Shown piece by piece: positions 30,563 through 34,944 of a stretch of DNA of 48,692 nt (positions are counted from its first letter, which is position 1; each line of letters starts with the position of its first letter). The translations under genes and the position numbers were made by a program. The notes under the pieces were generated by a model that saw only the letters and a list, made by a program, of their open reading frames with translations, ran no database searches and was not told the origin of the DNA. The stretch is from a virus: positions 1 to 48,692 of IMG/VR virus record IMGVR_UViG_3300032299_001628; one strand, written 5' to 3'.

Positions 30563-31309
30563 ATGGCGCGAAAAGCATCTTCACTACCGCAGGTTTTTGA
30601 ACAACCTACAGTAACGCTAATTAATAATAAACTAAAAGTAAAAATTGAAGATCTTACGACAATAAGTCCATTAACTGATAACCAAAGGAGATTTTTTGAG
30701 CAATACAAAACATCCATTTTAATGCTTCTGCATGGGGTAGCAGGTACAGGCAAAACTTACATTGCCCTTTATCGAGCATTGGAAGAAGTATTAGATAAGT
30801 CAACAACATATAGCAAAGTGGTAATAGTTCGATCAGCAGTACCCTCTAGAGAAATAGGTTACTTACCTGGAGATGAAAAAGAAAAAACCGAAGTTTATCA
30901 GCAACCTTATGTAGAAATTTGTTCTAATCTCTTTAATAAAAAAGATGCGTATCAAAGATTATTAGAACAAGGCGCCATACAATTTATGATTACGTCATTC
31001 GTACGTGGCATTACACTAGATGATTCTATTATAATAGTAGATGAGTGCCAAAACATGACTGATATGGAAATTAACAGTATAATAACTAGAGTAGGAGACA
31101 GAAGTAAGATAATTTTTTGCGGTGACTTTAGACAGACGGACCTTTATAAAAAACAAGATATGTCAGGTCTGAGAAAATTTATGGTTATTGCTGATATGAT
31201 GCCCTCAATGAAGACCATTGAATTTGAAGTTAATGATATTGTTAGATCCAATTTAGTAAAAGAATACATTATAGCAAGGATGAAATACGAGGAACAATAT
31301 AGCGCATGA
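30563..31309 (+). CDS. phoH: PhoH-like ATPase
   Basis: The product has 248 residues from ATG 30563, which has AGAGG just upstream. Walker A HGVAGTGKT is at about 57-65, VIVRSAVPSREIGYLPGD near 94-110 is the PhoH-specific segment, and Walker B SIIIVDECQNM is near 162. It ends with a VNDIVRSNLVKEYI helix. PhoH proteins are probable RNA-binding or helicase-like ATPases common in marine phages. The exact role is unsettled. No pho box was seen. Confidence 0.9.
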   Translation: MARKASSLPQVFEQPTVTLINNKLKVKIEDLTTISPLTDNQRRFFEQYKTSILMLLHGVAGTGKTYIALYRALEEVLDKSTTYSKVVIVRSAVPSREIGYLPGDEKEKTEVYQQPYVEICSNLFNKKDAYQRLLEQGAIQFMITSFVRGITLDDSIIIVDECQNMTDMEINSIITRVGDRSKIIFCGDFRQTDLYKKQDMSGLRKFMVIADMMPSMKTIEFEVNDIVRSNLVKEYIIARMKYEEQYSA

Positions 31310-32829
31310 ACATTGTTATTGTAGGCGGCGGTACAGCTGGTTGGATCGCCGCCTTAATGATCTCTAAAGTACATACAAATCATACCGTCACTTTAATTGA
31401 ATCATCAAAATTAGGAATAATAGGGGTAGGGGAAAGCACTACAGGCTTACTTACGGGTATTTTATCTAACTCTTATCATAATTTCGGTTGTGACATTCAT
31501 AAGTTTATTCGTCAATGTAATGCTACATTAAAATATGGAATTAAATTTGTTAATTGGTCAGCTAACGGTAATACATTTATAGCCCCTATTGATGGGAGCT
31601 TAACATCGGAGCTAGTTCCAGATTATGCTTTAGCTTATGGGCATTGTTTATTTGATCCAGAAACTCAACATCTTTCAAGTTTTTTAGGTACCTTTATTGA
31701 AGAAGATCTATCTCCTGTAAACAAAGATACCAATAACTTAGAAAATATAAATTTTGCATTTCATATAGATACATATGAGTTTGGTAAATACATTAAAGAG
31801 GTACTTCAAACACAAACTAATTTTAAGTATTTTGATAGTGAGGTAGAAGATATTTTTCTAGACAGTACCGGGGATATTAGTTCAATAAGGCTTTCTAGTA
31901 ATGAGGTAGTAAATGGTGATTTTTTTGTAGATGCTTCCGGTTTTAAAAAAGTTTTAATGTCCAAACTTAATAGTGAATGGGTTGATTATAGCCAAAACCT
32001 TCCGGTAAATTCTGCTATTCCATTTTGGTTAGAGTATGAAGAGGGAGAAACCCCTGACCCCTTTACACAAGCTACTGCCATGGACGCAGGTTGGATGTGG
32101 TGCATTCCTCTTCAAAATAGAAAAGGAATGGGGTATGTTTTTTGTGATAAATTTATAACACCCGAGCAAGCAATACGTGAATTAGAATCTAAACTTGGTA
32201 GAAAAATTGAATCTAGAGGTCTAATTAAATTTGTTTCTGGTAGACAAAAAGATATGTGGAAAAACAATACGGTAGCTATAGGGCTTTGTGCTGCTTTTAC
32301 CGAGCCCTTAGAAGCACAATCCATACATTCCACTATTGTTCAGATACACGATCTGGTGTATGAACGAATAAAAGATACAAAAGAGCAGACCATGAATACC
32401 GGGTCAAAAAATATTTACAATCAGCGTATGTCTATGCTTTATGACGATATAAGAGATTTTCTCGTAATACATTACATGGGTGGAAGAACAGATACACCGT
32501 TTTGGAAATTTATTAGTGAAGGAAGTACTAAAACTGAAAAAGTAATTAATATCTTAGAAACATGTAAATCTAAACTACCTACCTCAAGAGATTTTTTAAA
32601 TTATATTGGTCATCCTGGATGGGGGCTGTGGAGTTATATTTTATGGGGCCTTAATAAATTTCCTGAGGAAATAGTCAAAAAAGAGTTAGAATTCTGCCAA
32701 AAAATACATAATTTTAGTATAGAAGAACTATATATTATTGCTGAGAAAACCATTCAAGCGAAAAAGAATTCTAACTATAAGTATAGTGAATTATTTAACA
32801 AAAACGTATTAGAAAAAATAGGAGTATAA
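31306..32829 (+). CDS. flavin-dependent tryptophan halogenase-like enzyme
   Basis: The product has 507 residues, the usual length for this family. The FAD-binding GGGTAGW is at residues 7-13. The catalytic lysine is likely K76 in NATLKYGIKFVNW. The halogenase signature GWMWCIPL (WxWxIP) is at about 262-269. EPLEAQSIHST near 335-345 fits the substrate/chloride region. Such enzymes chlorinate or brominate tryptophan or related aromatics using FADH2, halide and O2. The substrate is unknown, and a separate flavin reductase (not seen here) would be needed. It overlaps phoH by 4 bases. Confidence 0.85.
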   Translation: MNIVIVGGGTAGWIAALMISKVHTNHTVTLIESSKLGIIGVGESTTGLLTGILSNSYHNFGCDIHKFIRQCNATLKYGIKFVNWSANGNTFIAPIDGSLTSELVPDYALAYGHCLFDPETQHLSSFLGTFIEEDLSPVNKDTNNLENINFAFHIDTYEFGKYIKEVLQTQTNFKYFDSEVEDIFLDSTGDISSIRLSSNEVVNGDFFVDASGFKKVLMSKLNSEWVDYSQNLPVNSAIPFWLEYEEGETPDPFTQATAMDAGWMWCIPLQNRKGMGYVFCDKFITPEQAIRELESKLGRKIESRGLIKFVSGRQKDMWKNNTVAIGLCAAFTEPLEAQSIHSTIVQIHDLVYERIKDTKEQTMNTGSKNIYNQRMSMLYDDIRDFLVIHYMGGRTDTPFWKFISEGSTKTEKVINILETCKSKLPTSRDFLNYIGHPGWGLWSYILWGLNKFPEEIVKKELEFCQKIHNFSIEELYIIAEKTIQAKKNSNYKYSELFNKNVLEKIGV

Positions 32830-32830
32830 A

Positions 32831-33295
32831 ATGCAATTAACCGAAAATTTCTCTTTATCAGAAATGATTAAAAGCGAGACCGCCCTTAGATACGATATGG
32901 ACAACACACCTGGGGAAGCAGAAATTGAAAACTTAAGAGTATTATGTGAAAATATTCTCCAACCCATTCGAAATGCATACGGCCGTGGTATTAAAGTAAA
33001 TTCTGGATTTCGTCATCCAGAAGTAAATGCAAAGGTTGGAGGTTCTAAAACATCCGATCACTGTCGTGGACAAGCAGCTGATATAGAAATTCCTGGTATC
33101 CCGAACGCTGATCTTGCTAAATATATTGCCGATAATTTTTATTTTACACAGGTAATATTAGAATTTTATACCCCCGGTATTCCTGACTCGGGATGGGTAC
33201 ATGTATCTTACGACTCTAAAAACCTTAAATGTCAAACGCTTACAGCAATGAAAGAAAACGGTAAGACTGTTTATAAACCAGGTTTAATTGCTTAA
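32831..33295 (+). CDS. M15-type peptidase (peptidoglycan hydrolase)
   Basis: The product has 154 residues. Zinc-site motifs are VNSGFRHPEVNAKVGG, then SDHCRGQAADIEI (His and Asp ligands) and GWVHVSY (third His), as in the D-Ala-D-Ala carboxypeptidase-like family often used as endolysins. There is no signal peptide, so it needs a holin or works in the virion. It follows the halogenase by one base. Confidence 0.85.
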   Translation: MQLTENFSLSEMIKSETALRYDMDNTPGEAEIENLRVLCENILQPIRNAYGRGIKVNSGFRHPEVNAKVGGSKTSDHCRGQAADIEIPGIPNADLAKYIADNFYFTQVILEFYTPGIPDSGWVHVSYDSKNLKCQTLTAMKENGKTVYKPGLIA

Positions 33296-33951
33296 TGTTT
33301 ACACATATACATCATGATTATCCAAAGTTGGAGCGTACCACAAATAATAACGGGGATAGAATCTACAAAACACCGACGGGTAGAGCCTATCCTTCCGTCA
33401 CATCGGTTACGGGATTGCACACAAAGAAATCAATCATGGAGTGGAGAGAAAGAGTTGGGTCAGAAACCGCCAATAAAATATCCTCCACCGCTGCAAGACG
33501 AGGAACAAGAATCCATACCCTTTGTGAAAGATACTTACAAAACGAACCAACAGGAGATATGTCCTCCCTTGACAGTGTTACTTGGTATGATATCAAACCG
33601 GAACTGGAGCTAATTAATAACATTCATGCTTTAGAAACCCCGCTCTATTCTGATCATTTAGAGGTCGCAGGTACAGTAGACTGTATCGCAGAATACAAGG
33701 GTAAGCTTTCTGTTGTAGATTTCAAAACATCTAGTAAAATTAAACAAAAAGAACACATACAGCATTACTTTATGCAGTGTTCAGCATATGCGGTAGCGTT
33801 TGAAGAAAGAACAAAAATACCAGTAAGTAACCTAGTTATTATTATGGCGGTAGATGATGAAGGAGTGCACGTATTTAAAGAAAAGCGTGATAATTGGATT
33901 GATAAATTTATTTTTTTACGGGATGAATATAGAGAATGGAAGAAACATTAA
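33295..33951 (+). CDS. RecB/Cas4-like PD-(D/E)XK exonuclease
   Basis: The product has 218 residues. H98-like HTLCERYL, then E-V-A-G-T-V-D (HLEVAGTVDCIAEYKG), then LSVVDFKTSSK (D and K of the DxK strand) and QHYFMQCSAYAVAFEE (QxxxY motif) are the hallmarks of the PDDEXK_1/Cas4-like and MGME1-like exonucleases. It probably degrades DNA ends in recombination or host DNA breakdown. Overlaps the peptidase gene by one base. Confidence 0.8.
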   Translation: MFTHIHHDYPKLERTTNNNGDRIYKTPTGRAYPSVTSVTGLHTKKSIMEWRERVGSETANKISSTAARRGTRIHTLCERYLQNEPTGDMSSLDSVTWYDIKPELELINNIHALETPLYSDHLEVAGTVDCIAEYKGKLSVVDFKTSSKIKQKEHIQHYFMQCSAYAVAFEERTKIPVSNLVIIMAVDDEGVHVFKEKRDNWIDKFIFLRDEYREWKKH

Positions 33952-33994: not shown

Positions 33995-34330
33995 ATGAAC
34001 ATTATAAAAACTTTTCTTTTTATCGCCGCTTGTTTTTTAACCTTGCCAGTTTATTCAGAAGGATTTTTACTTGAACTTCCTGTAGTATGTACAAAGCAAG
34101 TAGATAATGTTTCTAAAGCAGTTGCTTCCCATGGAGAAAAAGCTTTTGCTAAAGGTAAAAGCGATAGGCTTATAAACAATGATACATCCTATAGTAATAG
34201 TTTTGTACTGTTTGTGAACCCAGATACTAAATCATGGACTTTTGTAGAAATTTCAAAAGAAAATATTTTTTGTTTAATTGCAGCAGGTGAAGATTTTCAA
34301 CCAGCAAAGTCACGTAGCAATTATAAATAA
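33995..34330 (+). CDS. secreted small protein, probably leaderless mRNA
   Basis: The product has 111 residues with a type I signal peptide: MNIIKTFLFIAACFLTLPVYS, cleavage likely near residues 21-23. The mature part has two cysteines (VVCTKQVDN and IFCLIAAG) that could form a disulfide and a beta-rich middle (SFVLFVNPDTKSWTFVEI). It is likely periplasmic; function unknown. It is driven by the TAAC promoter at 33954, whose +1 coincides with its ATG. The end of the gene overlaps late-type and sigma70-like elements for the tmRNA. Confidence 0.75.
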   Translation: MNIIKTFLFIAACFLTLPVYSEGFLLELPVVCTKQVDNVSKAVASHGEKAFAKGKSDRLINNDTSYSNSFVLFVNPDTKSWTFVEISKENIFCLIAAGEDFQPAKSRSNYK

Positions 34331-34342
34331 ATATATTATAAT
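34322..34342 (+). promoter_or_regulatory. probable tmRNA promoter elements
   Basis: Two elements lie back to back: the T4-late-type TATAAATA at 34322-34329 and a sigma70-like -10 TATAAT at 34337-34342 with only a poor -35 (TAGCAA near 34315). Either could start the tmRNA precursor near 34336-34350. The sequence does not decide between them. Confidence 0.45.
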
Positions 34343-34349
34343 TTAATAT

Positions 34350-34411
34350 GATCGTATGATGTTGATCGAAAAGTGTTCTGGACGCGGGTTCGACTCCCGC
34401 CTGGTCCACCA
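34350..34411 (+). ncRNA. ssrA: tmRNA acceptor piece (two-piece, permuted)
   Basis: This is the 3' half of a permuted tmRNA, placed upstream of the other half. The T-arm is GCGGG, loop TTCGACT, CCCGC (34384-34400). The acceptor 3' strand CTGGTCC follows, then ACCA with encoded CCA at 34409-34411. CTGGTCC pairs with GGGCCAG at 34492-34498 in seven pairs, with G3-U70, the alanine identity pair. GTTCTG just before the T-arm can pair with CAGGGC in the coding piece as helix P2. The 5' end is approximate. Confidence 0.88.
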
Positions 34412-34431
34412 TAAACAAATTAGGAGTAACT

Positions 34432-34479
34432 ATGTCAGTTGAAGAATATTGGAAATGGATACATGACAACGTTCAATAG
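34432..34479 (+). CDS. 15-codon ORF in the tmRNA intervening segment
   Basis: Between the two tmRNA pieces (34412-34491) lies TAGGAG followed by ATG 34432 and an open frame of 15 codons (MSVEEYWKWIHDNVQ) ending in TAG. The Shine-Dalgarno is strong and well spaced. The peptide would be amphipathic. It may be chance in a processed spacer, a decoy, or a real micropeptide. Confidence 0.35.
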   Translation: MSVEEYWKWIHDNVQ

Positions 34480-34491
34480 TATGTTTATGAT

Positions 34492-34667
34492 GGGCCAGTC
34501 ATGGTTTCGACAGGGCAGTGAGTAAAAAGACAGACGGTCCGTCACCAGATAGACGTTAAAAGTGAAACAAAGTAAACGCAAACGATGAACGTTTTGCTCT
34601 TGCTGCCTAAACAGTAAGATGGGGTTTTCGGCTCTTCCTTATTACCCAAAGAGCCGAAAAATTTTTT
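34492..34667 (+). ncRNA. ssrA: tmRNA coding piece with tag ANDERFALAA
   Basis: It starts GGGCCAGTCATGGTTTCGAC, the tRNA-like 5' half, which pairs with the acceptor piece upstream. The conserved resume region AGTAAACGCAAACGA leads into the tag frame GCA-AAC-GAT-GAA-CGT-TTT-GCT-CTT-GCT-GCC-TAA at 34578-34610, encoding ANDERFALAA, very close to the E. coli tag end (ANDENYALAA). LAA at the C-terminus is the protease degron. The RNA rescues stalled ribosomes. The 3' end is taken at the terminator and is approximate. Confidence 0.9.
34625..34667 (+). terminator. terminator after tmRNA
   Basis: TTTTCGGCTCTT (34625-34636) and AAGAGCCGAAAA (34649-34660) form a perfect 12-bp stem with a 12-base loop, followed by ATTTTTT. 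It ends the tmRNA precursor; the left arm may also belong to a structural helix of the coding piece. Confidence 0.9.
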
Positions 34668-34773
34668 AGTGAGTAAAAACCAGATGCAACACCCGTCAAG
34701 CTTTCTTGACTTTGGATTGCTTTAAGGTAACGAGCTAAATTTGTGCAGTTAAACTTAAACTTTGGAGATTTAT

Positions 34774-34944
34774 ATGAAAATAGCTAAACTTACAGCCGCA
34801 ACCGTAGCAGCCCTTTTTGCATCCGTTGCTTTTGCCCAGCAAGCTCCTGCTGCTAAAAAAGACGATAAAAAGGCTGACGTAAAAAAGGAAGCCCCTGCGG
34901 CCCCAGCAAAGAAGGACGAAAAGAAAGAAGCAGCTAAGAAGTAA
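34774..34944 (+). CDS. secreted Lys/Ala-rich small protein
   Basis: The product has 56 residues from ATG 34774 (Shine-Dalgarno GGAG). The signal peptide MKIAKLTAATVAALFASVAFA ends in an AFA-Q signal peptidase I site. The mature 35 residues are almost only Lys, Ala, Asp, Glu and Pro (for example QQAPAAKKDDKKADVKKEAP). It resembles small exported proteins of bacteria more than phage proteins and looks richer in GC than its neighbours. It may coat or charge the periplasm. Function unknown. The bases from 34668 to 34773 hold no gene. Confidence 0.65.
   Translation: MKIAKLTAATVAALFASVAFAQQAPAAKKDDKKADVKKEAPAAPAKKDEKKEAAKK

Follow-up and report, generated by a model that had tools for sequence, protein, structure and literature searches.

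The intervening segment of a two-piece phage tmRNA gene as a probable slot for tiny protein genes

Introduction

What does a phage keep between the two halves of a permuted tmRNA gene? Annotation handles tmRNA genes purely as RNA and regards the intervening segment (IVS) that separates the two pieces as waste. One study counts 53 reported two-piece tmRNAs in phage genomes, 50 of them from marine or aquatic phages (PMC9004378). The accessible portion of a large tmRNA survey describes one permuted IVS with a tRNA-Ala gene, another with a repetitive element, and group I introns of tmRNA genes that carry homing-endonuclease genes, with no mention there of a protein gene in an IVS (PMC11915505). 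The question is raised here by a locus in IMG/VR virus record IMGVR_UViG_3300032299_001628, whose 48,692 bases, numbered 5′ to 3′ on one strand, are called the window throughout.

Results

A permuted tmRNA in a T4-like phage

The plus strand at 34350-34668 carries a circularly permuted two-piece tmRNA, identified by both ARAGORN and Rfam. ARAGORN calls a permuted tmRNA (tmRNA*) at 34319-34701 with the tag ANDERFALAA, and the covariance-model search that the initial annotation had proposed as a check of its two-piece tmRNA yields matches to RF04321 (tmRNA_permuted; 34350-34610, 134.6 bits, E 2.5e-26, full-length model) and to RF01850 (beta_tmRNA; 34300-34668, 130.5 bits). In both ARAGORN and Rfam the acceptor half, with T-arm and CCA, lies 5′ of the coding half with the IVS between them, i.e., the order of permuted tmRNAs, and the tag frame has a hydrophobic ALAA-type end followed by a stop; the window RNA is a member of the permuted tmRNA family. 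Its parts, all on the plus strand, are:

34350..34411, +, acceptor piece (ARAGORN, Rfam, pairing in 169 relatives)
34384-34400, +, T-arm, within the acceptor piece
34401-34407, +, 3′ acceptor strand CTGGTCC, within the acceptor piece
34408, +, discriminator A, within the acceptor piece
34409-34411, +, encoded CCA, within the acceptor piece
34492..34668, +, coding piece with 5′ acceptor strand, UUCGAC segment, tag frame and 3′ hairpin (ARAGORN, Rfam)
34492-34498, +, 5′ acceptor strand GGGCCAG, within the coding piece
34578..34610, +, tag reading frame ANDERFALAA plus TAA (ARAGORN; betaproteobacterial tmRNAs with this tag exist)
34625..34667, +, 3′ hairpin TTTTCGGCTCTT/AAGAGCCGAAAA with T-run (sequence; region aligned to the 3′ helices of RF01850), the late tmRNA helix and a probable terminator

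The acceptor helix, the alanine identity pair and the tag had all been read correctly in the initial annotation: CTGGTCC pairs with GGGCCAG at 7/7 positions, the third pair is G-U (G3-U70), and ARAGORN finds the same tag at 34578-34610. For comparison, several hundred viral loci, many with a permuted tmRNA, were gathered by pattern and protein scans and parsed by a pattern looser than the strict TGGTTTCGAC, giving 169 distinct relatives from phages whose IVS measures 20 nt or more. Their acceptor stems have 7/7 pairs versus 5.9 after shuffling of partners among loci, a pairing level somewhat biased upward because extraction demanded at least 6/7 pairs and some scans fixed GGGCC. The two-sided changes are unaffected by this bias: at pairs 4-6 both sides vary with compensation (C-G/G-C/U-A etc.), while pair 3 is G-U in 169/169. 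The initial annotation had made its case depend on the pairing of the halves in homologous phages, and it withstands this test because the relatives pair throughout with such compensated changes. CCA is encoded in 164/169 phage permuted tmRNAs versus 0/20 sampled betaproteobacterial genes.

The assignment to a T4-like phage likewise holds, the window encoding gp32 (best matches 57%, in cyanophages), helicase loader, primase, tail tube and baseplate hub proteins. SmpB was not found in the 48,692-base window, which is a fragment, and the idea that it is carried along with the tmRNA was rejected on this absence. Upstream of the tmRNA lie a gene and two promoter-like elements:

33295..33951, +, exonuclease gene (phrog_298, E 1.2e-68)
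34322..34329, +, T4-type late promoter element TATAAATA, which overlaps the preceding ORF at its end (sequence, enrichment)
34337..34342, +, TATAAT, a sigma70-like -10 box just 5′ of the RNA 5′ end (sequence, enrichment)

Both elements are enriched among 175 distinct phage tmRNA upstream windows, TATAAATA occurring in 14 (0.7 expected) and TATAAT in 30 (9.3 expected), with 20 TATAAT sites at 43-46 nt before GGAC. In related phages the exonuclease gene often lies next to permuted tmRNAs, and loci retrieved with the exonuclease carry tmRNA* downstream. Just 3′ of the tmRNA (34762-34944), a small ORF without a PHROG match has a signal-peptide-like start and then a Lys/Ala/Asp-rich tail (MKIAKLTAATVAALFASVAFAQQAPAAKKDDKKADVKKEAPAAPAKKDEKKEAAKK). 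A tryptophan halogenase-like gene (phrog_2928, E 1.8e-103) occupies 31306-32829 of this T4-like phage.

tmRNA subtype and host

RF01850 is the best subtype model and exceeds its gathering score (130.5 bits, cut-off 84), while the alphaproteobacterial RF01849 gives 52.6 bits from a partial match (40-279 of 355) and the cyano model 41.2. An exact scan for the tag frame in 84,980 species genomes, one genome per species, returned at least 120 loci. Among the matches listed and precisely titled, the carriers are betaproteobacteria only (Burkholderiales, Rhodocyclales and others); the titles listed are Alcaligenaceae, Rhodocyclaceae, Burkholderiaceae etc., or less precisely named Proteobacteria/Gammaproteobacteria MAGs, and no alphaproteobacterium appears by name among the matches listed. 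ARAGORN calls on the listed loci were 78 standard and 25 permuted, a few of them spurious.

The initial annotation had instead inferred an alphaproteobacterial host such as SAR11, whose own tmRNA that of the phage would mirror, from the permuted order, which is typical of Alphaproteobacteria. This inference is not supported: an alphaproteobacterial or SAR11 origin was rejected on the subtype scores and on the tag distribution among the matches listed, and the best named relative of the window RNR is from an Alcaligenes phage (60%), followed by many pelagiphages at about 55%. In its favour, tmRNA type and host can differ: phage Melnitz infects OM43 and yet carries an alphaproteobacterial tmRNA (PMC9004378), so that neither the tag nor the type has to agree with the host. 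A SAR11 host is therefore unlikely, given the betaproteobacterial type of the tmRNA and the distribution of its tag, even though a phage tmRNA may differ in type from that of its host, and a betaproteobacterial host seems the better guess.

A conserved micro-gene in the window IVS

The initial annotation had placed an 80-base segment correctly in length and position but had treated it as a spacer, overlooking a conserved micro-gene within it:

34412..34491, +, intervening segment (IVS), 80 nt (fold centroid; IVS-end pairing in relatives)
34422..34426, +, Shine-Dalgarno AGGAG, 5 nt 5′ of the start codon (sequence)
34432..34479, +, 15-codon micro-gene MSVEEYWKWIHDNVQ with ATG start and stop TAG at 34477-34479 (IVS conservation in loci L459, L502 and L499; family of 35 ORFs)

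The IVS ends are complementary, their arms extending the acceptor stem, and the centroid fold has a closing helix (34410-34417/34482-34489 and 34419-34422/34477-34480; z -2.2 for 34379-34510) with GGAG and AUG in a loop. Across phages, 6.48/7 positions of the IVS ends are paired versus 5.26 with partners shuffled, and at least 6 pairs form in 158/166 relatives.

An ORF this long with GGAG and ATG arises in 0.38% of shuffles of the window IVS, and because such shuffles give a comparable ORF at this rate (about 0.4%), the window ORF rests on its homologues. The encoded peptide is MSVEEYWKWIHDNAQ in the permuted-tmRNA IVSs of both L459 and L502, and MSVEEYWKWIHNNAQ in that of L499. Between the window and L459 there are 6 synonymous and 1 nonsynonymous changes and no indels, with start, stop and frame kept, and pN/pS is 0.047 over the three IVS micro-ORF sequences, a value helped by the search pattern.

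The window ORF also fits exactly a family defined here as M..[ED]YWKWI..N[VA]Q, i.e., 15 codons with a shared core and end and mostly a strong Shine-Dalgarno. A codon scan for EEYWKWI found 31 exact 15-codon ORFs including that of the window, all of which end in N-[VA]-Q-stop, an end that was not in the search pattern; an independent scan for WKWI..N[VA]Q-stop found 35 matches, all the same peptide, with [E/D]Y preceding WKWI. Codons 11-15, which lay outside the first pattern, show mean pairwise differences of 0.051, 0.183 and 0.600 at codon positions 1, 2 and 3, compared with 0.704 over the 15 bases after the stop. Outside both scan patterns pN/pS is 0.63, a weak test because the codons concerned (2-4 and 11-12) are the variable positions of the peptide, so that the codon-position comparison in codons 11-15 is the fairer one. 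Judged from these alignments, the micro-ORF is conserved at the amino-acid level with third codon positions varying, and the family, although its gene is very short, is clearly conserved as protein.

A strong Shine-Dalgarno precedes most of the 35 copies, all of which lie in viral contigs and in varied settings (head, middle or tail of tRNA arrays, or a tmRNA loop): 4 are inside permuted tmRNAs, 16 are separated by 0-17 nt from a tRNA gene on the same strand, 10 are 160-800 nt (within 1 kb) from the nearest tRNA or tmRNA, and 5 have none in view. Every carrier is an uncultivated contig; tblastn against 50,697 phage records found no copy, and blastn and tblastn gave no convincing match in cultured phages. 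Weak matches in Nitrincola, Aeromonas and Listeria were judged to be chance. The possibility that the micropeptide is the start of a longer protein was also dismissed, as the large EEYWKWI proteins that the scan also returned (GHAEEEYWKWICQWAV...) look separate and occur in a different context.

The IVS as a coding position across phages

A census of 108 IVS clusters, from loci not selected for ORFs, shows that 32 are at least 55% filled by a Shine-Dalgarno-led ORF. Shuffles that left both IVS ends intact gave 5.6 ± 2.0 such clusters, full shuffling 1.4 and the reverse complement 4. Since about two-thirds of phage IVSs have no such ORF, the tmRNA does not depend on coding. Each of the nine distinct IVSs that reach 200 nt is filled by a single ORF. 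The IVS of L411 contains a whole thioredoxin (PF00085, E 4e-21) within a 136-bit tmRNA, and that of L385 a PGDYG domain (E 3e-6) within an 86.9-bit tmRNA. Among cultured phages, the L411 thioredoxin has its nearest relatives in ordinary genes of Limnohabitans and Curvibacter phages. Membrane-type peptides of 22-24 residues (MNDNLGSLAIGVVVVLVVFALVLL) were found inside the IVS in 26 loci and once outside a parsed IVS (pN/pS about 0.2 over 11 sequences); their Shine-Dalgarno lies in or beside the closing helix, and their stop is the TGA of a conserved TTATGAT before the coding piece.

These payloads—transmembrane peptides, PGDYG domain, thioredoxin—are mutually unrelated. Mature tmRNAs that are 0.95-0.995 identical have IVSs of 0.3-0.58 identity (e.g., L118/L392/L514 and L076/L411), and because such near-identical RNAs carry different payloads, the IVS behaves as an exchangeable cargo site. 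The median phage IVS is 87 nt long (20-273) versus 26 in sampled betaproteobacteria (3-37 nt). Among 185 genomes of the betaproteobacterial class there were two strong permuted matches (141 and 172 bits), which cannot hold an IVS gene because they span only 191 and 207 nt, and a third past the cut-off at 47.9.

The cultured phages with a permuted tmRNA that were checked have no Shine-Dalgarno-led ORF in the IVS. ARAGORN finds permuted tmRNAs missing from the record annotation in five cultured phages, BUCT-ZZ01, X1, XacN1, PA_L9 and QDWS595 (L122, L527, L529, L530 and L531); several of these are from non-marine hosts, which widens the mostly marine distribution reported.

Discussion

The window locus shares with the betaproteobacterial permuted tmRNA (RF01850/RF04321) its gene order, acceptor and T helices, G3-U70, ANDERFALAA and a closing helix of the IVS ends, and differs from the sampled bacterial genes in that phage IVSs are longer and may code for protein, CCA is encoded and acceptor pairs 4-6 are diversified. 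Like Melnitz and other marine or aquatic phages, it belongs to T4-like myophages with a permuted ssrA; Melnitz, however, has the alphaproteobacterial type and a reported glutamine riboswitch, and no IVS gene is reported in the available part of its description, as opposed to the beta type and IVS ORF of the window (PMC9004378). Genes lying within the portion of a tmRNA gene that is cut away have a parallel in the cases described in PMC11915505, which are however a single tRNA or an endonuclease in a self-splicing intron, in contrast with the small IVS protein genes of many families, exchanged between tmRNAs, found in phages here. Two-piece phage tmRNAs are thus already known, but the coding IVS appears to be new; neither a coding IVS nor the micropeptide was found reported in the openly accessible literature.

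Taken together, the window probably holds a working betaproteobacterial-type two-piece tmRNA gene whose IVS also serves to house a tiny protein gene. A broader reading, to which we give a probability of about 0.5, is that the removed IVS serves phages as a cargo bay in which tiny protein genes can be exchanged; in the window lineage it would carry a micropeptide of 15 residues that elsewhere travels in tRNA arrays of phages. A single transcript would start from TATAAT (34337-34342) and/or the late TATAAATA (34322-34329); RNase P would cut at G34492 and 3′ processing would follow the CCA ending at 34411; the halves would join via the acceptor stem, receive alanine and function together with host SmpB. 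Translation of the IVS, from the precursor or the released fragment, would yield a micropeptide acting in trans, and its synthesis would be coupled to tmRNA maturation through their common precursor. Payloads would probably be exchanged by homologous recombination in the conserved tmRNA halves. From its location, we guess that the micropeptide probably acts on translation or on tRNA-targeting defence. Stp of phage T4, a 26-residue peptide, belongs to the field of tRNA defence; both are very small peptides of T4-type phages, an analogy that concerns only what the micropeptide may do and implies no sequence similarity.

A serious rival to the trans-acting micropeptide, possible although we consider it rather unlikely, is that the micro-ORF acts in cis, its translation (as a leader peptide or nascent-chain pause) controlling how the surrounding tRNA/tmRNA transcript is made or processed or how stable it is, while the peptide itself has no function. 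The 16 of 35 copies at 0-17 nt from a tRNA and the 4 inside a tmRNA agree with such a role, as do the length of exactly 15 codons and the invariant N-[VA]-Q-stop end, and the footprint of a ribosome standing at the stop would extend to the 5′ processing site at 34492. The contexts nevertheless differ, from any part of a tRNA array to a tmRNA loop, with 10 copies 160-800 nt away; the sequence right after the stop is not conserved; and other phages' IVS payloads include ordinary proteins, e.g., thioredoxin. A trans-acting micropeptide would fit these varied contexts best.

Two further explanations touch the coding status of the IVS and the function of the RNA. That the IVS is an ordinary non-coding spacer, its ORF due to chance or a decaying insertion, would agree with the lack of an ORF in most phage and all sampled bacterial IVSs; it deserves almost no credence in view of the synonymous-biased change in the window family and several IVS families, the codon-position pattern, the ORF excess over shuffles and reverse complement, and the recognisable domains in IVSs. 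It is also very unlikely that the phage tmRNA, instead of working as a tmRNA, acts against the host tmRNA-SmpB system as an inhibitor or decoy: the tRNA-like-domain-only tmRNA of phage DS6A is similar to a molecule with demonstrated inhibition of tmRNA (PMC4131195) and the window has no SmpB, but its RNA has a complete tag frame with an ALAA end and a compensated acceptor stem, and the relatives keep G3-U70 (169/169) and encode CCA (164/169).

On the cargo-bay reading, one transcript could be the source of a structured RNA in two pieces and, through the excised piece, of an mRNA as well, a rare arrangement. Gene finders that mask tmRNA would miss IVS genes, because the IVS is repeatedly a protein-coding position, including for a whole thioredoxin, and the micropeptide's tie to tRNA and tmRNA genes offers a direct lead to its role.

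The IVS of L129/L131 (L129 6432-6784) looks tRNA-like by eye (TGATATG...GGTTCGAATCC...CATATCA), although a tRNA gene was called there neither by ARAGORN, run on the IVS set, nor by Rfam. In nine loci (L037, L046, L039, L070, L104, L115, L118, L057 and L011) ARAGORN reads tags of 27-31 aa (e.g., ATADTFDFSAMSFTGNTVRGAANDSRFALAA), versus the usual 10, and several of them share TFDFSAMSFTGN.
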